Shown one piece after another: positions 100 through 61,008 of a stretch of 64,000 nt of DNA. Both the position numbers and the translations under genes were made by a program. Origin of the DNA: Rugalucina vietnamica (taxonomy: Eukaryota > Mollusca > Bivalvia > Lucinida > Lucinidae); assembly GCA_964017185.1 (NCBI GenBank), contig OZ024871.1:30046488-30110487 (forward strand). Direction: 5' to 3'. Every line of letters starts with the position of its first letter. The first letter of the stretch is position 1. The notes under the pieces are model-generated. The model was not told where the DNA came from. It saw only the letters and a program-made list of their open reading frames with translations, and ran no database searches.

Positions 100-2335
100 C
101 GTCACAGATTCTTTCTCCTAAAGAATCCGAGAGTTCTGTTAGCCTTTGTACAGACATTGGAAATATGAGTATTCCATTTCAAATCATTTGTGATAGTTAC
201 ACCCAGGTATTTTATGCTTTCAACGTTTTCCAGTACAGTGCCCTCAAGGGTGTAGTTCGCCTGTATCTTACTAGACCGTTTATTTGTCAGCTGCATCATG
301 TTGCATTTGACGGGTTGAAATCTCATTCCCCATTTCCTTGCCCAACTGCCTAAACGATCAATGTCTCTCTGAAGTTTCAATGTATCCTCTTCATTCTTGA
401 TTTCACGATAGCAAACACAATCATCAGCAAAGAGTCTTATTTCAGACTCAATGTCTGCTGAGATGTCATTTATATACAAGGAAAACAGCAAGGGGCCCGA
501 GAACGGTGCCCTGAGGGACACCCGACACAACTGGAGCCCAATCCGATTTAATACCGTTAACCACTACCCTTTGTTGTCGGAAACAAAGGAAAGCATTTAT
601 CCAATTCAGTGTTGTTCCACCTATTCCATAGCTAAACAATTTGCTTTTAAGGAGTTCATGGGGAGGAGTATCAAAAGCCTTTTCAAAATCAAGTATAAAA
701 GTGTCGACCTGGCCTTTTCTGTCTAAGATTTTGGCCCAGTCATTTATCACTGTAGTCAACTGAGTTTCACAGCTATGCCATTTCCTAAATGCGTGTTGCC
801 TGTCCGACAAGAGTTCATGTTCATCAAGATGGGCCATAATATTTGAGCATACAATATGTTCAAGAAGCTCACAAGGAATGCATGTAAAAGAAACAGGGCG
901 GTAATTGCGGGCAAGTGACCTGTCGCCCTTCTTAAACAGGAGGCAAATATTAGCAAGAAACCATTCTTTAGGAATTTCACCTGTATCAATTGACTGCTGG
1001 AAGAGATGGGCGAATACCGGCCCTAATTCCATAGCCAGTTCCTTTAGGACTCTGGGATGAAGCTCATCAGGCCCTAAGGCTTTAGACGGGTTTAGACCTT
1101 TGAGAAGTTTGGTCACCCCTTCCTTTGTGACCACAATATCATGCATGAATGGGGCAGATCTATCCATAAGAGGGACCTGTTTGTATTCACTTTTACTGAA
1201 AACATCCAAGAACTGACCATTAAATTCTTCTGCCTTCTCAAATTCGGATTGTGCAATTCCACTTCCATGCATTTCTCTTTTTCAACGGGGGAATACCTTG
1301 GGTATCTTTTTTCTGACTGTTTATGTACCTGTAAAAATCTCTAGGATTAGCCTTAACATCTCCTACCAAGTTGTTCACGTAAAGATCATGCTGCTTCCTG
1401 ATATCAGCTTTGATCTCTTTCTGTAAAGATTCAAATTTAGATCTAAATTTTGCACTACCAGTCTTTTTAGCTTTTGCATGAGTTGCATTTTTTTCTGCGA
1501 ATCTTCCTCCTTATTTCAGGTGTTATCAAAGGGACAGAGGAAACTGGGCGACTAGTTTTTGAGGGGATATGTTTATCTGCCGATTCCTGAATAAACGATG
1601 TAATGATATTGAAATTTTCCTGGACCGACCGAGTATCTGAGTAACCGTTGAAGTATCTTTCCTTTGCAAATTTAAGTGTTTCTGCTCTCATAGATTCATA
1701 ATCACCTTTCTGATAACGATACACTTTTCTCCTAGGTTTCTTTATTGGGGGATAGCAATTTTCAAAGTGCCAGAAACAATGGCATGATCACTGAGCTTAT
1801 CCGGGGAATGAATGTCTGCAAACTGACAAGGGAGAGGTCAAAATTAAGTCCAAAGTATTTCTTTCTCTGGTGGGGAAATTGACTAATTGTTCCAAACCGT
1901 GGTCATTCATGATATCTATCAAAATCTGACCCTCCGTCTGACTCAATGATGACCCAGATTTGCTGAGTCTGTCCGGCCATACAATATCTCTAAAGTTGAA
2001 ATCACCTAAAACGTGAATTAAGGGGGGTTTGTTGCCTTTATTAATATTTTTGATTTTGTCAAGCTGTTCTCTAAATAAATTGTCAAACTTTTCCAGGGAA
2101 TTCAATAAGTCATTTGTCCGATACTGGTAAATGACCATCGACAGGTGGTCGATACCAGCTAGCCACAAAGTGAGTTTTCTTATTTACAAACAGTTTGACC
2201 CAAACTGACTCTGAGTCATTGTCCAATTCTGTGAGGGGCATGTGTGGGATGTCCTTGTGCACAAGAAGCATAACACCACCACCATTTAAGGTTCTATCCT
2301 TTCTGTACACGCTGTTACCTGAACTTAACATCACA
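100..2335 (-). pseudogene. Decayed non-LTR retrotransposon (LINE), copy 1
   Basis: Reading the - strand from about 2335 down, fragments of an apurinic endonuclease domain come first (GDFN motif, then FPTRERNTLDLI), followed by a linker and a reverse transcriptase with KAFDTPPHELL, SGVPQGTVLGP and the catalytic LFADD motif. The order is that of a Jockey/CR1-like LINE second ORF. Frames are broken several times (open stretches 2110-2382, 1797-2168, 1467-1724, 466-1272, 102-530), so it is inactive. The 5' side is cut by an F-element fragment near 2336, and similarity to copy 2 (8175-10977) fades near 115, so the 3' end is also missing. The clade is not certain; the endonuclease plus RT assignment is. 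Confidence 0.85.
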
Positions 2336-8174: not shown

Positions 8175-10977
8175 ACCAATGTGGGTCACCATTGAGTAGG
8201 ATTGAAGGTCAAATTTTGGTTGACATTATTAATGATCATGGATTTGATCAATTAGTCCACTTCCCTACCAGAGAAAGAAATACTTTGGACTTGATTATCA
8301 CTTCTCTTCCCAATCAGTTTGTAGATATTCACTCCCAGATTGTCTCAGTGATCATGATATTGTTTCTGGAACGCTGAAGATTGTTATTACTCCCATTAAG
8401 AAACCTCGGAGGAAGGTGTATCGGTACCAGAAAGGTGATTATGAATCTATGAGGGCAGAAACATTAAAATTTGCAAAGGAAAAGTATTTCAATGGCTACT
8501 CGGATACCCGTTCGGTTCAGGAAAATTTCAATCTTATTACATCTTTCATTCAGGACTCGGCAGATAAGCATATCCCATCAAAAACAAGTCGCTCTGTCTC
8601 TTCTGTCCCATGGATAACTCCTGAGATAAGGAGGAAGATTCGCAGGAAAAATATAACTCATGCAAAAGCTAAGAAAACTTGAAGAGCAAAAATTAGATCT
8701 AAATTTGAAAACTTAAGAAGGGAAATCAAAGCTGATATAAGGAAGCAGCATGACCTCCTCATTGCATGTTTATATGTGTGTATATCTGAGCCACTGCAGA
8801 AGATGAGGGTGAGGTTATGGCCATGTAAAATCGATTTAAACCCGCCAGTAACTTTGTGTTACTGATCGTTCCATGTCGATACTTCTGTGGTGGTTCTTTT
8901 TTTATGTCTTGGTGTTCAAAATATTTTTGTGCTGTTGGCGCCTTATGTATGTTTGCATATTTTTAGTTAAGTTAAAGTAACTGAGTGGCCACCTTTTGGG
9001 AAAATAGCTGCTCATTCGGCTTACGAAATGTTTTCATGGTATAAGTACCTGATTGTTAGTTTGGTTTTTTCCCACCTCGGTTTTTGGAGTGGGAATCTTT
9101 TTCTACTTGCGCCTTTTCCTGATCTTTGCCTACTTGTACCTTTTTATGTCAATAACTTGGTAGGGGATGTTAAGGCTAATCCCAGGGATTTTTTATAGGT
9201 ATATCAATAGTCAGAGTAAAGATACCCAAGGCATTCCCCCTTTGAAAAAGAAAAATGGAAGTGGTATTGCTCAATCAGATTTCGAAAAAGCAGAAGAATT
9301 TAATGGACAGTTCACAGATGTATTCACCAAAACGGTACACACCCAAGTCCCACTTCTGGATAGGTCGGCCCCATTCATGGATGAAATTGTTGTTACAAAG
9401 GAAGGAGTAACAAAACTCCTTAAAGGTCTGAACCCATCTAAAGCCTTAGGACCTGATGAACTCCACCCTAGAGTCCTAAAAGAATTGGCAAAAGAATTAG
9501 GACCTGTATTTGCACATCTCTTCCAGCAGTCAATCAATACGGGTGAAATCCCCAAGGAATGGTCACTTGCTAATATTTGTCCACTTTTCAAGAAAGGTTA
9601 CAGGTCCCTTGCTTGTAATTACCGCCCAGTTTCTTTGACTTGTATTCCTTGCAAACTTCTAGAACATATTGTCTGCTCAAATATCATGGGTAATCTTGAC
9701 CAGTATAATCTTTTGTCGGACAAACAGCATGCATTCAGGAAATGGCATAGTTGTGAAACTCAGTTGATTACAGTAATAAATGATTGGGCAAAAATAGGTT
9801 GACACTTTTATTTTTGGACTTTGAAAAAGCTTTTGACACCCCTCCACATGAACTTCATAAAAAGCAAATTGTTTAGTTATGGTATAGGTGGAAAGACATT
9901 GGAATGGATAAATGCTTTTTTGTGCTTCAGGCAGCAAAGGGTAGTAGTTAATGGTGTTAAATCTGACTGGGTCGCTGTTGTGTCTGGTGTCCCTCAGGGC
10001 ACCGTTCTCGGTCCATTGTTGTTCTCCTTGTACATAAATGACATACCCGTTGGCATTGACTCTCAAATCAGGCTTTTTGCTGATGACTTTGTTTGTTACC
10101 GTGAAATTAGAACAGTAGAAGATACATTGAAACTTCAGAAAGACATTGACCTTTTAGGGAGCTGGGCCCGAAAATGGGGCATGAGATTTCAACCTGTCAA
10201 ATGCAACATGATGCAGCTGACAAATAAGCGGATAAATAAAATTGAGGCCTCGTACACCCTCGAGGGAACGGTACTGGAAAATGTTGATAGCATTAAATAT
10301 CTAGGTGTAACAATTACAAATGACCTCAAGTGGAATACCCATATCAATAATATCTGTACTAAAGCCAACAGAACACTTGGATTCTTGAGGAGAAACTTAT
10401 TTTCTTGCCCCCAAGATGTTAAAGAAGCAGCTTATAAAGGACTGGTGCGCCCAGTTCTGGAATATGGAAGTTCTGTTTGGGATTCTCATACTAAATGCCT
10501 CCAGGAGGAATTGGAGAAGGTACAGAATCGTGCCGCTAGATTTGTAACTAGGAATTATACTTTCGAGGAAGGTAGTATGACTGGCATTCTTGAACAACTC
10601 AAATGGGAATCTCTCAAGAAAAGGAGGACGGATAATCGACTTATATTACTATACAAAGGTCTGAAGGGTAAAGCCAGAATACCTACAGATGACCTTATCC
10701 CAAAGACTAGGCGTTGTAGAAATAGCCACTCCAAGGCATTTCAGCTTCCATCTGCTAGTATAGAGGCCTATAAATGTAGTTTCTTTCCCCAGACTATCAG
10801 GGACTGGAATGACCTCCCTGACTCTCTGTTTTCTACTGCTGAAATGTCAGATGATTGTGTGTCCAAGTTCGCTTCACTCGTGCGTTCAAGGGACTAATTT
10901 CTCCCCCATCCGAACCTCCTGGTGAAATAATGTCATTTGGCGTGTCACCAGTAAACTATTCAGATTCAGATTCAGGC
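8175..10977 (+). pseudogene. Decayed non-LTR retrotransposon (LINE), copy 2
   Basis: Same family as copy 1. In order: the end of the endonuclease domain (8192-8377, FPTRERNTLDLI), a linker (8416-8682), then reverse transcriptase in two frames (9167-9802 and 9821-10897) with SGVPQGTVLGP, the catalytic FADD motif (read as LFADDFVCYREI) and the C-terminal part through VLEYGSSVWDSHTK. It is 5' truncated, carries frameshifts near 8380 and 9803 and stops after 8682, and is split by an F element at about 8757-9146. The stop at 10897 is followed by a short 3' tail that ends in repeated attcag units, which suits a CR1/L2-like 3' end. It lies 485 bases upstream of the CNOT3 start codon on the same strand. 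Confidence 0.85.
8757..9146 (+). mobile_element. F retroelement inserted in LINE copy 2 (copy 8)
   Basis: LINE copy 1 reads straight through from aagcagcatgat to aacaacttggtaggagatg, whereas copy 2 has about 390 extra bases here. The insert runs from the gagccactgcag block to the common 3' end acttgtacctttt, so it is an F copy lacking G. Exact ends and any target duplication are blurred by divergence. Confidence 0.7.
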
Positions 10978-11461: not shown

Positions 11462-36566
<25,105 letters not shown>

Positions 36567-38990: not shown

Positions 38991-40898
38991 ATATATCTAC
39001 AATATCAGTAGCAGAAATGCGGTTTCATACAGCCATTGACTAGTACATGTCAACTGTTTTTGCTGCCAGTCTGCTGTATTCACGCACAAGATGGAGTAAA
39101 AGGAACCTTAACTGTAGCTTTATTTCCTTCTATTAGCCTGTTTATTTCTTAAATAAAAATTAAATATTAAAACAACACGGTGGTTTTGCTTGTACATAAC
39201 TTGAAAGGTGAAATTCCTCTACTTATACATAATGTAATATTAAAAAAGAAAGGCTGCATAGGACAAAAAGTTCCTGTTCATAAGTAAACTTATTGGCTTA
39301 GTGGCGTTTAATCGATTTTGGTTTGCTATTGGTTCCTTTTGCTTTATCTTGTTCTATATATTGTCACATTTTCATTTTACACATCTTTTTTTTCTCTCGC
39401 ATTTTCTGACAATAGAAATCTTGCATTTTCTGTTACAGCATTGTCTCATGGTAAGGAATGGTGCATTTCAATCACTTGTTCATAAAACTTTAATTGCATT
39501 TGTGACCAATGTAGATCTGGATCTGCAAGGGTGTACACATAATGTTGCCAGCTATATGAAAGGAAGAAATATTTGAGGACAAAGTGAATATAAAAGCCTG
39601 CATGGTCAAGCCACTGCCTAGCAATCCAGTTTTGCAAGTTGGACCACCACCCCCCCAAAGGGAATGCTGGCCAATCTGGATATAGTTAGACCCAGGCAGA
39701 ACTTGGTCTCCAGCTTGGGCCATGGTCCGATTTATTGATTTGTTCATGCGGTTCCATCTGTCATAAAGCATTTATACATTCACCTCACTCATATTAGGCA
39801 GTCTCTTCATGAAATTGGCCATAATTACTAGTCTTTCAACTCACATGTTCATGCATATATTCATTCAGTGCTGTAGTGATCAAATCATCTGTCTGTGGTA
39901 TGTGTAAATAAGCAGGCTATGACCTTGTCAGATCTAGGCATGGAATAGGGGATATGCTGATGAAGAAAAGAAGGGCATTGTGCTATTCTCATGAAGTTAT
40001 TTGTTATTAACTTTACCTCCAGTGTTTCCAATTATTGAGTTGAAGTCTGTAATATACTGCTCAAAATAATTTAAGGATCGCTTTAATATTTTCCATGTAT
40101 CGTAGTTGAAAGCGCACAAAGTATAACCACATTTCATTACGAAAATTTGCGCCGAGGCAGTTCTAACGAGTAAACACGATCTGTTTTGGATCAAAAATAA
40201 GAAAAATAGGTATATTCCTGCATACCCCTGTTTTGCTGTTTTATACACATGCTATCCAGATGTAGTGGCATTCCACAAAGATTTAGAATATCTGATTATT
40301 TTGTATTGTGTGAATAGTGCTTTGAAGACACTGACAACAAGAAATCTTTCCTGGAAATATGCTGTCTAAGTCCATTAAGCTTTGTTTGATCCTTAATTTA
40401 TTTTGAGTAGTATTACTTAGTTGTCATTTTAAGTTGAGCACTTATGTAGGTGGCTTAGATCAGTTTTCCATTCTGTAGTCAAGCTTAAGATACTTTGTAC
40501 TGTCAAAATTTTGAAAAATTTCAGAAATATATTTTATGTTTTCAGTTCTGTAAATTCATTGTTTTTACGTTAGAACAAAGACAAGGGGTAAAGCTAAAAT
40601 GTTGCTTTTAGGTCTATGCCTTGGTTATGTTGGCATTTTGTTAAGATTCAAGTTGAGGATTATGTGCTAGTAGGAGTGCAAAAAATCAAAGCAATATGTG
40701 ATTTGTTTTCCTTGTGCAATACCAAAGACAATGTGTAGCAGGAGTGGAATAAAATCTGCAAGAGTACTGTAAAATAGATATTTTGGCAGCATTTTTTTGC
40801 ATTATTTAACATGGCATAATGCAAATGAATTAACAAAAGCGGGTTGGCGCTGTTTGACTAGATGTGTGAATAGAAGTTCTCAAACATAAGGATCAAAT
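38991..40898. other. No gene seen
   Basis: AT-rich; ORFs are short and without known motifs. aataaa occurs near 39150. Confidence 0.5.
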
Positions 40899-41125
40899 AA
40901 GCCACCTCATGGGAAATCAACAATTTGCATATGCGAAAACAAAGGCGCAGATCAGCTTCGCGGTTACCGCGAAGCTGATCAGCGCCTTTGTTTTCGCTAC
41001 ACGGATAGTACAATCCCTCTACTTCTTAAATACTAAATTTCATGCTTCTAGCTCTTTTCTGTACAGGCCGGTTTGTGTGGGACCTGTTCGGAAACCACAT
41101 TGTTGGTTTTTCCACAAAGCGGCTC
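40899..41125 (+). mobile_element. MITE-A copy 21
   Basis: aaat on both sides. Inner stem cttcgcgg/ccgcgaag fully paired. Confidence 0.92.
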
Positions 41126-41324
41126 AAATAGTACAAGACATTCCAGAATCATGCTAATATTTCTGTAACTATTATCATGTTATTACCAACAGTAAAAGAG
41201 ATTGGTGGCAATGTGGATTTGGATATAAGCTAGGCTTTGAGATAAAATGACATTATTACGAATGCAATCATCAAATAAATGAATGGATAAACTATGCTCA
41301 TGATTATCCATGCCCCAAGGTTAT

Positions 41325-41521: not shown

Positions 41522-41633
41522 AGCTCAGGGGCCATGTCTTTGTTGTTCACTGCTTAGTATGATGCCTTATTCTCTCATGGCAAAGTTCAAATACTCAAGC
41601 TGGTCTGTCTAGCTGGACTGAATGCTTGTAAAT

Positions 41634-41868
41634 GAGCCACTGCATGGGAAAACCAACAATCTGCAGAGCCGAAAACAAAGGCGCAGATCAGCTTCGCAGT
41701 AACTGCGAAGCTGATCAGCGCCTTTGTTTTTGCTATAGGGATATTACAATTCCTCTACTTTCTAAATCCAAAATTTCCAGCCTCTAGTCATCTTATGTGA
41801 CTGTACAGGCCGGTTTGTGTTGGGCCTGGTCGGAAACCCAAATTGTTAGTTTTCTCACGCACAGGCTC
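41634..41868 (+). mobile_element. MITE-A copy 22
   Basis: aaat on both sides. Best hairpin: 41672-41699 pairs with 41703-41730 over 28 bases with a single A-A mismatch and loop taa. Confidence 0.94.
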
Positions 41869-42369
41869 AAATCAGTTACAAGAAACACACCGGTTATCCA
41901 GAGACAACCAATGTGACTGAGAACAACCAATGCAACTGAAATCATAACATGTATTAGGCTTTGTGGTGTAAATAACTACATGGGAACAACTGACCACAGG
42001 TCTTTCTGACCATGGTAAGTTATTCCCAGGCAGGTATTTATTCTGTAGTGCCACATATTGATTTCATGTGGTTGTTGTTCTCAGCTGCATTGGTAGTATC
42101 AGGATAACCAGTGTGAACTAAAATTCTCAGGAAAAAGTTGACATTGTTGTGATTTGAAGGAAGGTTTTAACTATTTTGACAGCAGCCTTAGAACATGATA
42201 ATAGCAAGTGTAACTAAATGGCAGGGACTTTCATGAAGATTTTTTGTGTAAAACTGATAATTACTGTTATAGAACAAAGAGTTTTTACTTGTTTTTCTCA
42301 CAAGTAGTGACGCAAATTTTAACTGTGTTGGCAACTTGGGTGCGTAAATTGGTTGATGCAACATTATTT

Positions 42370-42605
42370 GAGCCGCATCGTGAGAAAACGGGATTTTTGC
42401 CTATGCGAAAACAAAGGCGCAGATCAGCTTCGCAGTAACTGCGAAGCTGATCTAGCGCCTTTGTTTTCGCTACACGGGTACTACAATTTCTCTTATTCTT
42501 AAATCCGAAATTTCAAGCTTGTAGCCTGCTTCTGTGACTGTACAGGCCGGTTTGTGTCAGACCTGGTCGGAAAGCCCGAAGACCGGTTTTCTCGCGTCGA
42601 GGCTC
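42370..42605 (+). mobile_element. MITE-A copy 23
   Basis: attt on both sides. Hairpin as copy 22 but with one extra base (gatctagcgcc) in the second arm. Confidence 0.93.
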
Positions 42606-44020
42606 ATTTTATACTGTTGTTATTGCTGTATTGTCATTGATTATCAGATATATACAGTTGGAGCATATTGTTGAATCTTATAGACAAGCGTCTGAAGGAT
42701 CACTACATAGGGTACAAGCGGCCGAAAGATCACCAGAAAACTATTTTGGCAGGGGTTTTGGAGACTTGATTGGTTCTGGTGGTCATATTTTATTTTTTCT
42801 TCTGTGAAATATATTTAATGTGGCTTTTTGTATAACACAGTGCAAAATGTTGAGTTTAAATACAAACTGTGCAAACTGTCAGCAGCAATATGAGTGATGT
42901 CCTGCAATGGCTGTTTATCCGGTATCTCTGGTATTTCAGATAATATTTCCTGAACATGAAAGTAAAATATTTCACAGAGACAAAATTAACAATGACCATC
43001 AAAACAGATCAAGTCCAATCCCCGCAAGGTACTATGTTTGTTCTGTCGTCGGGCTCATTTGTGATAGTTGTGATATGTAGAACACTTCCCAACATGCTTT
43101 GTTTGATGAAATGATTGTGATTCAACTTTTTAGGGGTTGATTTATTGTCATTTTAGCTTGTAAAACATGTTGGGTCAAGATTTGGAAAGAACAGTTACTC
43201 TTTACACTGTTGTACAACAGTGATGAGTTACGGTTCTTGCCTGAACTTGTCCACCTGAAGATTTTAGTTTATAAATGTACACATCATTTGTATAAGTGTG
43301 TCCTATTTTTGTACAGCATAAAATGTGATACCTCAGTGTTCAAGCCTCTGGCAGACGAGGCTGTGGATGGGTTTAGAGAGCCGCATCCACTGCCAGTTTT
43401 ACAATGAAGCGAATGATGTGGATATGTGATGTTAATCCAAGGACAATTTTATTTAGATTTTCATAGATGAATGTGCTGGGTATGTACATGTGTATTATAA
43501 TTGCATCAAAATAAGTTCCCACGATGTTCTCAAGAGTATTGTGGATTCTCTGAATACCTACATACATACCTAAAATAAATATTCTGGAAAATTTAAGAAA
43601 AAAATGTACCTGGCAGATTAACACAACATACCCATATTGTTTGATTCATTGAAATCTAGTTGTATATATTCTGGGGGCCAAACACAAAGGTGAACAGAAA
43701 ATGCTGAAAGAAGAGAAAAAAATTATAAAGGCAAAATACAGTGATTTTGTCCATGCAGTTTAGTCGTATTTCTATCTTTAATACCTGCAAACCAGCCACT
43801 AAATGAAATGATCAAGATGGCTTTGTCGGTAGCATCCCACCATCAGGAAAACTAGACTCAGACCTTCAGCTGTTATTTACAATCTCCATGCGTGTTTACA
43901 CAAGGGCATTCCGAACGTAGTGGAGTGAGGATTCGCAACTACAGAAAAACATGAAATGTATACCCTCTAAACCCCCACTTTTATATGGTAAAACTGGGGT
44001 TTGCAGGGGTAAAGCTATTT
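42606..44020. other. No gene seen
   Basis: Short ORFs only (for example 43210-43407) with no motif. Confidence 0.45.
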
Positions 44021-44128
44021 TTCTTATGTTTGCTCCAAAACAAGATTGTGGGTACTCGTTAGAACCACCTCGGCGAGGCGGTTCTAATGTGTACCCTTAG
44101 TCTATGTTTTGAGCAAAAATAAGAAAAA
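44021..44128. mobile_element. Near-perfect 108-bp palindrome
   Basis: Arms of about 50 bases (atttttcttatgtttgctcc ... ggttctaatgtgtaccc) meet at cctcggcgagg near 44074. Probably a small fold-back element. Confidence 0.7.
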
Positions 44129-44283
44129 TATAAAAAAAATTCCAATGAAAATTTTCAATTTTTACGACTTGAGAAAAATCTTTATATATCATGGATATGT
44201 TTTCATTATAGCTTTATCGGTAGTGTGTCTGGTCCATAAGGATGCAGACCTGCAAGCGATTGTCACATGCATATTTCTTTCAT

Positions 44284-44705: not shown

Positions 44706-46512
44706 TATGTCTCCCCCCGACAGGGTCGGGAGACATATTGTTTTTCCCCGTGCGTCTGTCCGTCCGTCTGTCTGTCTGTCCGTCCGTCTGTCTGTCACAA
44801 ATCGTGTCCGCCCTATAGCTTGAAAACCGTTAAAGATTTTTCAATGAAACTTGGTACACTTGTAAACCACGACGAGACGATGTGTCATGCACAAGAACCA
44901 TAACTCTAGCTTGAGTATTTTAGGAGTTATTTCCCTTTGATTATTTTCGATACAATTTCGTGTCCGCTGTATAACTTGAAAACTGTTAAAGATTTTTCAA
45001 TGAAACTTGGTACACTTGTAGACCACGACGAGACGATGTGTCATGCACAAGAACCATAACTCTGGCATGAGTATTTTTGGAGTTATTTCCCTTTGATTAT
45101 TTTCGATACAATTTCGTGTCCGCTGTATAACTTGAAAACCGTTTAAGATTTTTCAATAAAACTTGGTACACTTATTGAGCATGATCAGCCTCGACAGGGT
45201 CGGGAGACATATTGTTTTTCCCCGTGCGTCCGTCCGTCCGTCCGTCCGTCCGTCACAAATCGTGTCCGCCCTACAGCTTGAAAACCGTTAAAGATTTTTC
45301 AATGAAACTTGGTACACTTGTAAACCACGACGAGACGATGTGTCATGCACAAGAACCATAACTCTAGCTTGAGTATTTTAGGAGTTATTTCCCTTTGATT
45401 ATTTTCGATACAATTTCGTGTCCGCTGTATAACTTGAAAACTGTTAAAGATTTTTCAATGAAACTTGGTACACTTGTAGACCACGACGAGACGATGTGTC
45501 ATGCACATGAACCATAACTCTGGCATGAGTATTTTTGGAGTTATTTTCCTTTGATTATTTTCGATACAATTTCGTGTCCGCTGTATAACTTGAAAACCGT
45601 TTAAGATTTTTCAATAAAACTTGGTACACTTATTGAGCATGATCAGACGATGTGTCATGCACAAGAACCATAACTCTGGCTTGAGTATTTTATGAGTTAT
45701 TTCCCTTTGATTATTTTCCATACAATTCATGTCTGCTTTCTAACTCGAAAATCGTAAGAGTTATTTCAATGAAACTTGGTACACTTATAAAGCACGATGA
45801 GATTACGTGTCGTGTTAAAGAACCATAACTCTTGCTTGCATATCTTTGGAGTAATTTCCCTTTGATTATTTTCCATACAATTTCGTGTCCACCCTATAAC
45901 TTGAAAACCGTAAGAGAAATTTCAGTGAAACTTGGTACACTTATAAAGCATGATGAGACGATGTGTCATGCACAAGAATTATAACTCTTGCTTTCATATC
46001 TTTGGAGTTATTTCCCTTTGATTATTTTTCCATACAATTTCATGTCCACTCTATAACTTGAAAACCATAAGAAATATTTCAATGAAACTTGGTACACTTA
46101 TAAAGACGATGAGATGTAGTGTCATTCTAAAGAACCATAACTCTTGCTTGCATATCTTTGGAGTTATTTTCCTTTGATTATTTTCCATTCAATTTCGTGT
46201 CTGCTCTATAACTCAAAAACCATTAGAGATTTTTCAATGAAACATGGTACACTTATAAAGCATGATGCACAAGAATCATTACTCTTGCTTTCATATCTTT
46301 GGAGTTATTTCCCTTTGATTATTTTCCAAACACTTTCGTGCCCCCTCTATAACTTGAAAACCGTAAGAGATATTTCAATGAAACTTGGTACACTTATAAA
46401 ACAGAATGACAGGATATGTGATGCACAAGAACTATAACTCTTGCTTGCATATTTTGGACATGCATGTAGAAAGGGGGGAGACATCAGTTTTCACATAGAA
46501 AACAAATTCTAG
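44706..46512. mobile_element. Helentron-like element D with internal tandem repeats
   Basis: tgtctcccccc near the left end is inverted at 46474-46486, near the right end. It is followed by a hairpin gttttc-acata-gaaaac and the terminal ctag. Comparison with the empty site in copy C3 shows insertion in a T run without duplication. The inside is about eleven repeats of 150-160 bases (tttcaatgaaacttggtaca). The left 474 bases, including the terminal ccgacagggtcgg hairpin and a (GTCC)n run, are present twice (offset 44718 to 45192). Confidence 0.78.
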
Positions 46513-46649
46513 TTAAAATTTCAAACATGAATATTACAAATACACTGTCATTTGCAATGTGATTCTCACATTTTGTCAACAAAAAATAACAGTGTATTTG
46601 CTTATGTAGTCGGCATTTACACGAGTTGATATCTTAACGATGACCTTAA

Positions 46650-46870
46650 CTCATTTAAGCCTGGCGTCCCTTTTGTGGGACATAGGCAAACAGTATAGCC
46701 CCAGATGTGACGCCGCAGAACGCGGCGTCCCATCTGGGGCTATTCTGTTTGCTTACAGTAATTTCATTGAAAAATGGAATAAAATTTTAAAATCACACCT
46801 ACGGCCCCCAAAAACGAAGGTGGACTCGCCTAAATGATAATGATGGGAGAATTCATTCGTCAAAAATGGG
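46650..46870. mobile_element. MITE-B copy 5, complete, TTAA target
   Basis: TTAA at 46646-46649 and 46871-46874. Inverted ends, and an inner palindrome with apex gcagaac between gacgccgc and gcggcgtc. Copy C3 has a single ttaa at the equivalent point. Confidence 0.92.
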
Positions 46871-46898
46871 TTAAGCTTACGAAGTTTTGAACAACTGG

Positions 46899-54129: not shown

Positions 54130-56712
54130 CACTAATGAGAAAGACCATCATTATTTCTTGAATAGTGCTGATGTGTGTTGGTGAGTTCTTTGATGGCTGA
54201 CTAGGCCAATTCTGGCTCTAAACTGTCGGTTGCAAGTACAGCAAGTCAATGTCATAGAGTCTGATGGTGGCACATTTGTTTTGGCTTTGCGCTCTCTTCG
54301 CTTTCTTTCAGCTTCACAGATTCTCTTCTTTTCATAAAGAGCTGCTCCTTTGTTGATGAGACCTCGCCACTTTGATCGCTCCTGTGCAGTCTGTTCCCAG
54401 GACCCCATTGGTATTTCGAAATCCTTCAGAGAGGCTTTGAGGGTGTCTTTGTAGCGTTTCTTCTGGCCACCTTGAGAGCGCTTTCCCTCCTGTAGTTATC
54501 CATAGAAAACTTTCTTTGGAAGTCGCGCATCAGGCATTCTTATAACATGGCCAGTCCATCTTAGCTGTGCTAGCTTTAAGACTGTATGCATGCTTTGCAT
54601 CCCTGCTTTCGTCAGGACCTCTGTGTCTGGAATCTTGTCCTGCCACTTGATTTTTAACAACTTTCTCAAACAGCTTAAGTGGAAATGGTTAAGTCTCTTT
54701 GCATGGCGTTGGTATACTGTCCAGGTCTCACATGCATACAAGAGGGTTGGCAGTACCACAGCCTTGTAGACTTTCAGCTTGGTGTCAAGCTTGATTCCAT
54801 TTCGCTCCCAGACATTTGCACGGAGTCGTCCGAATGCCACACTAGCCTTTGCAATTCTGGCAGTGATCTCATCATCAATATGCACTGCTCTGGAGAGAGT
54901 GCTTCCCAGGTAGGTGAACTTGTCAACAACTTTCAGTTTTTGCCCATTCACAGTGATGGTTGGTTCATTATATGGCTTTCCGGGCGCTGGTTGGTGTACA
55001 ACCTCTGTCTTTTTTGTGCTGATTGTGAGATCATAGTTATCACATGACTGTGAGACTTGATCCATGGCTCTTTGCATTTTTGCCTCTGTGCTGGCATTCT
55101 TATCCATATCATCTGCATAGAGGAGCTCATCTAGCACATCAGTCTGGACCTTAGTTTTGGCTTGCAACCTTCTGAGGTTGAATATGTTGCCATCAAAACG
55201 GTACCTGATTGGAAAACCAGTGTCACTGTCCTGAAAAGCATCCATAAGCATGGCAGAAAACATCATGCTGAACAGTGTTGGTGCCAGAACACAGCCTTGT
55301 TTGACCCCATTTGTTACTTCAAATGGTTCAGAGAACTCTCCATCATTTTGCACACGTGCCTGCATGCCATCATGAAACTGCCGCACCATTGCTATGAATC
55401 TGGGTGGACAGCCAAACTTGGCCATGATTTTCCAGAGTCCATCACGACTAACAGTGTCAAAAGCTTTGGTGAGGTCAACAAACGTTATGTATAGATCTAC
55501 ATTCTGTTCTTGGCATTTCTCCTGAAGCTGTCTTGCTGTGAAGATCATGTCTATTGTCCCTCTGTCTTTTCTGAATCCACATTGACTTTCTGGGATAAGT
55601 CCCGTCTGATCAAGATGAACATTCAGACAATTCAACAGAATTTTTGCAAGTATCTTCCCAGCAATTGATAGGAGGGAGATGCCTCTGTGATTGTCACAGA
55701 CTTGAGGATTTCCTTTCCGCTTGTATAGGTGGATTATGGATGCATCCTTAAATTCTTGTGGGATAGCCTCCTTTCTCCACATACAGTGAAACAACTCTGT
55801 CAGTTTCTCTGCCATGGGTAGCCCCCCAGCCTTGTAAACTTCGGCAGGAATTGCATCTGCACCTGGGGCTTTGCCAGATGATAGTTGTTGAACTGCTTTT
55901 CTTGTTTCCGTAACGGTAGGAAATTCATCTAACAGAACATTGCACTCTATCTGTGGAAGTCTGTCGATTGCATCCTCATTGATGCTTGATGGTCGATTAA
56001 GCACACTATTGAAGTGTTCTGCCCACCTTTCCAAGATAGCTTCTTTATCTGTGAGAAGAGTGTTACCATCTGCACTGAGCAATGTGGTGGCTCCAGAACT
56101 CTTTGGACCATAAATGGTTTTCAGTGCATCATGAAATTTCTTCATGTCCTTTCTATCCGCAAAAGACTGAATTTCTTCTGTTTTCTTCCTCAGCAAGGAA
56201 TTTTGCATGCCCCTAAGCTTGGTCTGGACTGTCTTACAAATGTTGCTGTAGGCTGCTTTCTTTGATACTGAGCTAGTATCATCTTGATGTGCCTTGTGCA
56301 ATCGGTGCTTTTCTTCAAGAAGCCTCTGAATTTCGTCATCATTCTCATCAAACCAGTCTTGATGTTTGCGAGATGGATGGCCTAAGGTGCTTGCAGCTGA
56401 AGAAAGAACTGTTTTATGGAAAACTGTCCAGTTTTCTTCGGGGTCCTCTGAACTGAGATTCATTGCATCCAGTTGGTTGCAAATGTCTGTTAAGAAATCT
56501 TGTCTCATGCTGTCTTTATTCAGCTTTGAGACATCCAGTCTCTTAGGAGCTTTCTTGCCTTGAGGTCGCCTCGCAGGCTGTATTCTTAGGTTGAGTTTGC
56601 TGACAACCAGTCTATGATCTGTCCAGCAGTCTGCACCACACAATGTCTTTGTCACTTTAACATCCTGCCTGTCTATTCTCCGCACTATGACTATCACAAC
56701 ATAAAATTTCAA
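54130..56712 (-). pseudogene. 5'-truncated LINE reverse transcriptase with a C-terminal C2H2 finger, one nonsense codon
   Basis: From 56712 down to 54151 the - strand stays in one frame except for a single TAA at 54496-54498. It starts inside the end of an endonuclease domain (CWTDHRLVVSKLNLR), then a linker, then RT motifs (NHRGISLLSIAGKILAKILL, GFRKDRGTIDMIF, VDLTKAFDTVSRDGLW, GVKQGCVLAPTLFS, the catalytic YADD), a thumb-like part (YLGSTLSRAV, LLYACETW) and, past the nonsense codon, CCTCNRQFRARIGLVSHQRT-H, a C2H2 finger at 54190-54255. No first ORF or full endonuclease remains. Different family from LINE copies 1 and 2. The near-intact frame points to a fairly recent insertion. Confidence 0.88.
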
Positions 56713-56905
56713 GGGCAGCTAACTCCGCAATCCTCAAGAGCCGATCTGGTCGAAATGCAAAGTCATCCGAGATATTATGGTTTTCCACGTTACTGCTAAG
56801 AAGAATTATGTTTTTTTTTTTTTTTTTTTTTTTTCAAACATTCAAGGACAGATAACTCTGCGATATGGGTGATCAGGCCGAATTCACAACTCATCCGAGA
56901 ACTAG
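56708..56905. repeat. Direct repeats, right members, with a poly(T) run
   Basis: Two related blocks (56708-56798, 56840-56905) separated by T24 at 56812-56835. Confidence 0.55.
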
Positions 56906-58090: not shown

Positions 58091-59100
58091 TGGACAGCTG
58101 GATATACACTCGACGGTAATGATTATGTTAAGTATCTAGCGTAAAGTTTACCGTGTGTTTGCAGATAAGGCAGCGTACCTTTATTTCATATTATATGTTG
58201 ATCGATCAATATTATATGTTTTTCGTGTTATCATTTAGTACATCCGGGTGTGTTGATATTCATGAAGAGATATACACTTCTTTTGGACTTTGGACATACT
58301 GTTCAATATTATCTTTTTCATATTCAATCCTGAGATTGTACACGGGACTTGATTTTCCCCACTCAGAAGGCAGGTATTTCGTTTTGATATAATTCTTTAC
58401 TCATACTTCACCCATCACAATTTTAATTTAAATGGTATTGGCTTGCTGCGCCCTTAAAACAAACGTCTACCGTAAGTATGTCAAACTATATTAATTTATA
58501 TTTGACCACCATCTGGAAAGATCATCTTACCAGGAAGATCAATTGTTTTCAGTGCATCAGTTTATATAGGCAGATTATATTTTTCTTTTAATCCTTTGTG
58601 ATCAGTGAAGACATTTGGAGCATTTCAAATATATTGTACGTTAAGAATCACCATCTTAACAGAATTTTGAATTTTTGGCCTCTTTGGGAATATTAGTCTT
58701 TGAATTAGACTATGTTAGTGTAAACTTTGAAAATTGCAGCGATCATGAGTGTCTGGCTTTCACTGCCAGTTTTGTAAAGGGTCACTGATGGAGGTTCATT
58801 ACCTGAAATTGTACAATATGGCCCACATTTTCTCTTTGAATGTTTTTACTGCTTGCAAAGGATCTAATAATTACATTTTATTTACTTGCACAAATGTTAA
58901 CGCATTTGCTTCATAGTGCTCTTTGAAATGCCCGTCATGCTGGAAGAATACGAAATATAAGAAATGACCCAAACCACGGTGTTATAAGAGTCTATTGTTT
59001 GTATAATCAATTATATTTTAAAACCTATATTCACACCGATATTTGACCAACGGCGAAATGGTGTCATAATTTAAATTGAGTTATATCTAACTCTGATTTC
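58091..59100. other. Upstream region of the B-box gene
   Basis: No gene seen. A 5' untranslated exon probably lies here or further left, since the coding exon is preceded by an acceptor. Confidence 0.4.
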
Positions 59101-59102
59101 AG
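59101..59102 (+). promoter_or_regulatory. Candidate splice acceptor before the B-box start codon
   Basis: taactctgatttcag ends one base before the ATG, suggesting a 5'UTR intron and a single coding exon. Confidence 0.5.
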
Positions 59103-59103
59103 C

Positions 59104-61008
59104 ATGTCAAGTGTCGAAGTCTTGCGAGAGGAAGACGCAGAGGTTACATCATCTGATGAACATGTAGATCCTTACTGTGAACAATGCGTGGACGATAAGA
59201 CGATAAGAGTTGCAGCCATAGGTCTCTGTAAAGAGTGTAACACTCTCATCTGTCAGCAATGCCTGGAAGCCCATTCTAAATGGCCGAAATTGAGAAACCA
59301 TACAATTCTGCAAGGTGAGGATATGCCACGGACGCAGGCCGCGAAACCAGTAAAATTTCCTGACTGTGAAATACACAAAGATAATGTTAATGACCACTTT
59401 TGTCTGGACCATCATAAGATACTTTGCAGCCAGTGCATGGAATCTTTCCATGGGGCATGTAAGGGGACAACCATACATGAACTATGCAAACTTCTTGACA
59501 TAAACGATGTAAGAAAAATTCGAGATGATATACAAAAATCTGTACAAACAGCAAACACGGTAAAGCTTGCAATACTGCAGAATAAAGATACTATAGAATA
59601 TCAGAGGAAGACAGTGATAAGAGAAGCTCAAAATTTGAAGAAACAACTGATCGATAAGATCGAGTCCATCAATGTTGAGGACATTCCCATCACTGACTTT
59701 TGTGATAATAAAAATTCATCTTTTGAAGAGAAAGCAGAAGCAACAGCAAACGCAATTCATTACATGCAAAATGACATTTCACTCCTTGATGACTTCGACG
59801 TTGACGTCGTTACGCCCAAAATGTTTCTAGAGATACAGAGGATAGTCGAAAATACAAATGCAGCTCATAGGAAACTAAATGAAGTGTCTAATCGACATCG
59901 AAATATCAGTATTGCCTTTGATCCCAATCCCGCTGTAGCTAACTTCCTCGAGTCTAAGGATGAGTTGGGAGAGATAAAAGAAGACGTTACTGACACCGGT
60001 GTCTCGACAGCGTTGCCTGTGATGTATTTTCCAGCAAAATCTCCGTCGAAATCTGATTCACAAAGTTTAGGAACAACCAAACGGATGCATTTGTTTTTCT
60101 TGCTGGCATATATTGTGGTTTATGTTCTCATTTTCTTCCATCACCCATACACCAAAGGTGACGTAAAAACGTGTGAAATGTTCAACATGACGCTCACAAA
60201 GAAATCCTCAGTGAATGTAAAGATAGATGCTGATCCTGATAAAGAAGTACTTTGGGGTATCCCAGGAATGGTTATCACTACAAATGAGTTTTTTCTTATG
60301 TTTGCGACATACGTAAATGACAAAAAAGTAAAGGCATTCTCTAGTGATGGAACATTTGTATCATCTCTGTCATTGTCGGGTACTCCATTAGCCATAGCTT
60401 TGATCAACACGACTACAGCAGTAGTGAGTACCATGGATAAAAAAATTCACTTCATTAACATATCTCTTCCTTCAGAACTATCATTACTAACGTCAGTGTC
60501 ACTTGTATACAAGGTAAGGGCTCTGAATGTGTTTAATGATAAACTAATCATTGCTGATTGGAGTATACCACCCAGTGTGAAGATGTTGGATCTTGGTGGC
60601 AACGAGCTATGGTCTGCTCCGTCAAATGGACAGGAACTCTTTCCGACACCAGTTTTTCTTGTAACGAAAGTTATCAATGATACAGCAACAGTAATAAAGA
60701 CCGATCATGTGAATGATCAGATAGTATTCCTAGACGCTGACAATGGTAAACTTATAAACACTATTGATGTGAAAGGGAAGCGTCCATCAGGCATCGCAGT
60801 CGATAATTATGGTTATGCTTATATCTGCTATTGGAAAACTTCAGAAATCAGTGTGTGGGCTCCAGACTTCAGTCAAAGCCGGATCCTCCTGTCAAGTGAT
60901 CAGTTGCAGGGTAGACCTAGACATATTGTTTACAGTAACGTCACTGGAGAACTTTTCATCAGATACAGCGGGAGCAGTATCGTAGATCGTTTTCAAGTTA
61001 CTTGTTAA
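59104..61008 (+). CDS. TRIM-like protein: two B-boxes, coiled coil, membrane helix, NHL-like propeller; no RING
   Basis: 634 residues in one exon. B-box 1 uses C25, C28, C42, C45, C50, C53, H57 and H66. B-box 2 uses C88, H91, C100, H103 (or D102), C108, C111, H116 and H125. Residues about 130-270 are helical and charged, as in TRIM coiled coils. Residues 330-345 (LFFLLAYIVVYVLIFF) form one short hydrophobic helix. The rest reads like NHL/six-bladed propeller repeats (GIPGMVIT, KVKAFSSDGTFVSSLSL, GIAVDNYGYAYICYW). Without a RING it is unlikely to be a ubiquitin ligase itself. The B-box/propeller set suggests a scaffold or sensor role, possibly membrane-bound; the substrate is unknown. The start has A at -3 and follows an acceptor. 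A MITE-A lies 40 bases after the stop. Confidence 0.85.
   Translation: MSSVEVLREEDAEVTSSDEHVDPYCEQCVDDKTIRVAAIGLCKECNTLICQQCLEAHSKWPKLRNHTILQGEDMPRTQAAKPVKFPDCEIHKDNVNDHFCLDHHKILCSQCMESFHGACKGTTIHELCKLLDINDVRKIRDDIQKSVQTANTVKLAILQNKDTIEYQRKTVIREAQNLKKQLIDKIESINVEDIPITDFCDNKNSSFEEKAEATANAIHYMQNDISLLDDFDVDVVTPKMFLEIQRIVENTNAAHRKLNEVSNRHRNISIAFDPNPAVANFLESKDELGEIKEDVTDTGVSTALPVMYFPAKSPSKSDSQSLGTTKRMHLFFLLAYIVVYVLIFFHHPYTKGDVKTCEMFNMTLTKKSSVNVKIDADPDKEVLWGIPGMVITTNEFFLMFATYVNDKKVKAFSSDGTFVSSLSLSGTPLAIALINTTTAVVSTMDKKIHFINISLPSELSLLTSVSLVYKVRALNVFNDKLIIADWSIPPSVKMLDLGGNELWSAPSNGQELFPTPVFLVTKVINDTATVIKTDHVNDQIVFLDADNGKLINTIDVKGKRPSGIAVDNYGYAYICYWKTSEISVWAPDFSQSRILLSSDQLQGRPRHIVYSNVTGELFIRYSGSSIVDRFQVTC

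Follow-up and report, generated by a model that had tools for sequence, protein, structure and literature searches.

The inner hairpin of a short, highly repeated DNA transposon of the bivalve Rugalucina vietnamica seems to be conserved in the source copies of the family and fragile in the inserted copies. In the reading that we prefer, to which we give a probability of roughly 0.55, the hairpin is a constrained cis-element of source copies, and the paired differences between its arms stem from a few inherited switches, from chance pairs arising at CpG dinucleotides and, perhaps, from some arm-to-arm copying. When the two arms of a hairpin change in pairs, this is usually taken to prove selection for an RNA fold. 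In the present family, the paired changes concentrate at three pairs of the stem, are tied to the end type or the age of the copies, fall partly within mirrored CpGs and are accompanied by deletions at the tip of a probable DNA hairpin; the case is a caution for covariation tests applied to repeats. All coordinates below refer to the window, a 64,000-nucleotide stretch of contig OZ024871.1, unless a locus is named. The reference copy of the element has the following features:

41633..41869, + strand: whole element, 237 bp (profile match, flank comparison)
41631..41632, no strand: left 2-bp target duplication (AA), with A at 41630 (exact family-wide in 43/59 copies)
41870..41871, no strand: right 2-bp target duplication (AA), with T at 41872 (flank comparison)
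41633..41663, + strand: left terminal inverted repeat, with an approximate inner limit (DNA folding pairs it with the right end)
41839..41869, + strand: right terminal inverted repeat, likewise with an approximate inner limit (copy alignment, DNA fold)
41669..41733, + strand: inner hairpin region, 65 nt, with a 3-nt loop TAA at 41700-41702; the outermost pair is broken in this copy (folding)
41685..41685, + strand: A of the A.A mismatch in the left arm, partner 41717 (pair counts)
41717..41717, + strand: A of the A.A mismatch in the right arm (pair counts)
41694..41698, + strand: left-arm pairs 26-30, partners 41704-41708; paired changes concentrate at 26, 27 and 30 (pair counts, permutation)

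The element is a MITE-like non-autonomous terminal-inverted-repeat DNA transposon. Its ends are inverted repeats (TGAGCC...GGCTCA), and flank comparison shows that similarity between copies stops abruptly at both borders. Both ends are present in 59 copies; in 43 of these the 2-bp flanks are the same, as compared with a mean of 12 for shuffled pairings (at most 22 in 500 shuffles). The base beyond this 2-bp target site duplication is A on the left in 50/59 and T on the right in 53/59, which defines the target as ANNT. The element is short (237 bp) and its copy number is high, since the exact tip pattern AGATCAGCTNNGCNGTNACNGCNNAGCTGATCA has 60,211 matches in the 1.09-Gb assembly and the reversed-pattern control has none (this and the other genome-wide pattern counts are whole totals). 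Small size, an AT-rich target, terminal inverted repeats, a target duplication and a very high copy number are shared with bivalve MITEs; the window itself is AT-rich. The 65-nt inner hairpin and the 2-bp duplication at ANNT, in contrast, set the element apart from them. Some likeness also exists with the pearl family of bivalves, another mollusc repeat; according to PMC5139131, DTC84 has a conserved palindrome near the repeat junction. Pearl elements are characterized there by internal satellite-like repeats; inspection by eye of the aligned copies of the present element found none.

The hairpin described by a first-pass annotation of these letters is real. The region 41669-41733, with its TAA loop and its mismatch, has an RNA fold of -49.4 kcal/mol (z -13), and 31 ordinary pairs are counted in the stem across 73 copies. 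The A.A mismatch had been described as kept in all full copies; it is indeed found in most of them (68/73), but not in all. The idea that it is a specially preserved feature was rejected, because 6 of its 146 bases are changed, close to the mean of 6.3 for the other pairs (pairs 13, 26, 27 and 30 set aside). Similar mismatched hairpins probably occur in repeats of other bivalves.

Copies were collected by a profile search of about 340 kb, which yielded 131 non-overlapping copies or fragments, 73 of them with a whole hairpin. The window contributes 29 copies or fragments (14 whole hairpins), where 25 copies had been counted at first reading, and 250 kb of evenly placed stretches contribute 69 (33 whole hairpins). 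The remaining 26 of the 73 whole hairpins belong to loci that were retrieved as best hits, with a bias toward the query; the other 47 form a less biased subset. For end types, a 93-copy set was made of the 73 whole-hairpin copies and 20 copies chosen from the listed genome-wide tip-pattern matches. All four tip versions named in the first-pass annotation, together with its hybrid copy, are found in the window. Representative copies are:

19860..20093, + strand: hybrid copy, TC left arm and AC right arm
20922..21153, - strand: copy with paired TT/AA at pair 27
21421..21657, + strand: consensus-hairpin copy
33323..33566, + strand: GT/AC-tip copy
34638..34873, - strand: copy with G-C at pair 30
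40898..41126, + strand: copy with G-C at pair 30
42369..42606, + strand: consensus-hairpin copy

It had been proposed that, wherever the stem varies, a change in one arm is matched in the other. This does not hold: one-arm changes are present in six window copies (17271, 18953, 24351, 26239, 34873 and 38758). A changed Watson-Crick pair is found at pairs 26, 27 and 30 in 8, 13 and 19 of the 73 copies, respectively, while the other 28 ordinary pairs show 156 one-arm cells versus 14 paired cells, plus 4 in which both bases are changed but unpaired. These counts were compared with 2000 permutations in which right arms were swapped among copies of similar divergence. With all pairs, 54 paired cells are observed versus 40.7 in the permutations (0/2000 reach the observed value); without pairs 26, 27 and 30, 14 are observed versus 11.3 (383/2000 reach 14). 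The 47 less biased copies give 49 versus 36.9 (0/2000) with these three pairs and 13 versus 9.5 (145/2000) without them, the latter being a weak hint toward pairing. In 57 young copies (T26/A26'), the stem outside the three pairs holds 81 one-arm cells and 3 paired cells, for 2.7 in the permutations. Thus, the covariation signal is retained as an excess at pairs 26, 27 and 30, near the loop, but the rest of the stem stays close to the permuted values. Paired changes spread over the stem, as expected for a structured RNA, were not found in these sets. Moreover, the left-arm change G13 to A is seen in 16/73 copies belonging to several tip classes, and is unpaired in 14; because it mostly occurs without a matching partner, pairing is not strictly required. 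Most single copies seem to decay one arm at a time.

These data bear on the possibility that a folded RNA is selected, for instance as a source of small RNAs. Strong RNA folds were obtained for 4/4 hairpins folded, which is consistent with such selection. However, the paired changes are not distributed over the stem, the tip deletions described below point to a DNA fold, and no Rfam family is found at gathering score in the window, so that we regard RNA selection as very improbable. A reading of the hairpin as an RNA gene was rejected on the same absence of Rfam matches (0 at gathering score in the window).

The copies can be sorted into tip classes, which are told apart, on the left arm as on the right, by pairs 26-27 (GT/AC or TC/GA) and by pair 30 (A-T or G-C). 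In the 93-copy set, 20 copies carry the TCG/AGC tip, of which 19 have a right end of type I and one is without assignment. The TCA/AGT copies have right ends of type I (8), II (7) and III (18), with 5 unassigned, and the assignable right ends of GT/AC copies are of type II (4) or III (3). Divergence from the type consensus is 0.155-0.194 for GT/AC copies (3 subsets, 5 copies) and 0.051-0.125 for TC/GA copies (8 subsets, 44 copies, some of them fetched as best hits). Pair 30 therefore tracks the end type, and pairs 26-27 go rather with age. Since TC/GA is present in all three end types, switches may have been repeated. On a tree built without the hairpin columns, parsimony counts both-arm changes twice at pair 26, five times at pair 27 and four times at pair 30, with a further 5 elsewhere in the stem, all on end branches; this tree is weak (6/64 inner branches starred) and does not separate repeated switches from exchange between copies. 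A tree-based event count for numbering the switches was set aside, its support being too weak.

According to the first-pass annotation, selection or arm copying would be contradicted if all variants could be traced to a small number of ancestral hairpins and no paired switch had recurred. The confinement of G-C at pair 30 to end type I agrees with a few ancestral hairpins; the presence of TC/GA in three end types, the repeats counted by parsimony and the occurrence of TT/AA on several backgrounds do not. It can be proposed that source copies underwent a few switches of the tip and passed the new states on, which is clearest for pair 30; at pairs 26-27, switches may have recurred or subfamilies may have exchanged their tips, and the GT/AC tip would be the older state. 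Hybrids may be products of recombination between subfamilies. Indeed, one copy (L093) has a TC/AC mix like that of window copy 19860, and its left end is of type II whereas its right end is of type III, which such recombination would explain. For the window hybrid itself (19860-20093), the alignment is compatible either with recombination or with an intermediate form.

Pair 27 lies within a CpG on both arms, and so does pair 30 in its G-C form (mirrored CpGs). One may therefore imagine that no constraint exists, a few founder hairpins having drifted and CpG decay having supplied the remainder. The concentration of paired changes at three pairs, with 27, and 30 as G-C, in mirrored CpGs, fits this scheme. 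However, the difference at pairs 26-27 needs four complementary changes, two of which are transversions, and the hairpin diverges less than the rest of the element. We thus consider the absence of constraint improbable.

Genome-wide, the paired doubles 27T/27'A (the TT/AA form) and 28A/28'T number 472 and 264, versus 254 and 281 for the unpaired controls 27T/28'T and 28A/27'A (odds ratio 1.75, CI 1.39-2.19, p 1.6e-6). Part of the TT/AA excess may reflect a subfamily: the left end is of type IV in 5/20 fetched TT/AA copies as compared with 2/93 others. These 20 copies are distributed over several end types. At pairs 1-16, the 20 fetched TT/AA copies show 6 paired versus 39 one-arm cells, and 20 copies from the listed tip-pattern matches show 1 versus 28; among the 6 paired cells, 4 are in mirrored CpGs and 2 (pair 13) are outside. 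For non-CpG doubles, three cells were counted, with 24 (pair 31) and 10 (pair 24) paired and 9 unpaired, corresponding to an odds ratio that goes from 13 to 1.3 if the fourth cell is 2 to 20. The 24 paired pair-31 copies are distributed as 6 on the + strand and 18 on the - strand, perhaps by chance. Finally, in one copy (L019:5327-5564) both arms have changed so that a C-G pair became G-C; this fits copying, and CpG decay cannot make such a change. This copy and its neighbour (L019:5013-5242) both have an unusual right-arm C at pair 14, with the matching left arm only in L019:5327-5564; the common C is perhaps due to local exchange between copies.

Replication of an inserted copy could transfer one arm onto the other, through template switching or quasi-palindrome correction; could such arm copying make most of the paired changes? 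The mechanism is already described, and template switching produces paired changes (PMC8794818). Template-switch and quasi-palindrome mutations (PMC8794818, PMC3820800) resemble the present case in that hairpin arms gain paired changes, but differ from it in that changes here are mostly one-armed outside three pairs and the CpG pair excess is modest. The odds ratio at CpGs, the non-CpG paired doubles (24 and 10 versus a single unpaired control of 9), the both-arm transversion, the occurrence of tip states in several end types, the value of 13 versus 9.5 in the less biased copies and the tip deletions, which suggest a folded strand, all argue for it. Nevertheless, neither the young copies (81 one-arm cells, 3 paired, 2.7 permuted) nor the 73 copies (14 versus 11.3) depart much from permutation, the TT/AA excess may partly be a subfamily effect, and arm copying would erase the A.A mismatch, yet a Watson-Crick pair is found there in 1/73 copies. 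Arm copying as the main source of paired changes therefore appears doubtful. That a small share of hairpins is rewritten arm to arm, perhaps more often near the loop, is a tentative suggestion; if so, a rate per hairpin could be read from a single genome, with the unpaired doubles as internal control, and the more than 60,000 copies lend themselves to measuring how often arms are copied naturally. With this qualification, our preferred reading attributes the additional paired states of pairs 27 and 30 chiefly to double CpG decay, to which arm copying may have added a small part. Among the titles and abstract openings listed in the literature searches, with few subscription journals, none describes paired changes in a MITE hairpin.

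Divergence is one argument for constraint in source copies. Over 57 nearly complete copies, taken both from the window and from the evenly placed stretches, divergence of the hairpin is 0.48-0.67 of that of the rest, even though the hairpin is richer in CpG (6 in 65 nt versus 6 in 172); this low value could partly result from how the copies were found. This lower divergence is consistent with maintenance of the hairpin in source copies. The initial alternative, namely that either the fold is selected or one arm is copied onto the other, is thus partly supported by the excess at pairs 26, 27 and 30 and by the lower hairpin divergence, but not in the form of a steady selection or copying acting on each copy, as judged from the remainder of the stem (3 versus 2.7 in young copies; 14 versus 11.3). 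As a guess, the hairpin might be kept as a site for the transposase or a host factor, or for the fold itself.

In inserted copies, the tip is a preferred site of loss. Among 32 deletions of at least 4 nt in 79 copies, 20 start in the 65 hairpin columns (p 3.5e-5) and 17 in 31 tip columns, out of 237 positions (p 7.6e-8), the events being not all independent since a few copies hold several. In two copies (L022 and L012), an identical 27-nt segment is missing between two GATCAGC repeats, and these repeats owe their existence to the A.A mismatch. The clustering of deletions in the tip indicates that the DNA probably folds, the hairpin strand adopting its structure as DNA, as during replication; the folded strand would then lose its tip.

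Other hairpin repeats were observed as well. A second, unrelated family has a hairpin of about 77 nt (CAAAACATAG...) with a mid-stem mismatch in many copies (L009:58-134, L012:7542-7618, L015, L017, L024 and window 43952-44162); by eye, 5/23 aligned rows lack tip bases. A third family (window 46645-46875, also 21183 and 26097) has TTAA-containing ends and a hairpin in its left third. In a Pfam scan of 8 of the 19 listed open frames, reverse transcriptase (RVT_1) matches were found at 54496-56718 (-), 9803-10897 (+) and 466-1281 (-), and a 642-aa open frame at 59080-61008 (+) gave a match to the B-box zinc finger that barely exceeded the cut-off. Lastly, several similar matches of about 70 bp, spaced by roughly 156 bp, lie at 44852-46162 and perhaps form a tandem array.
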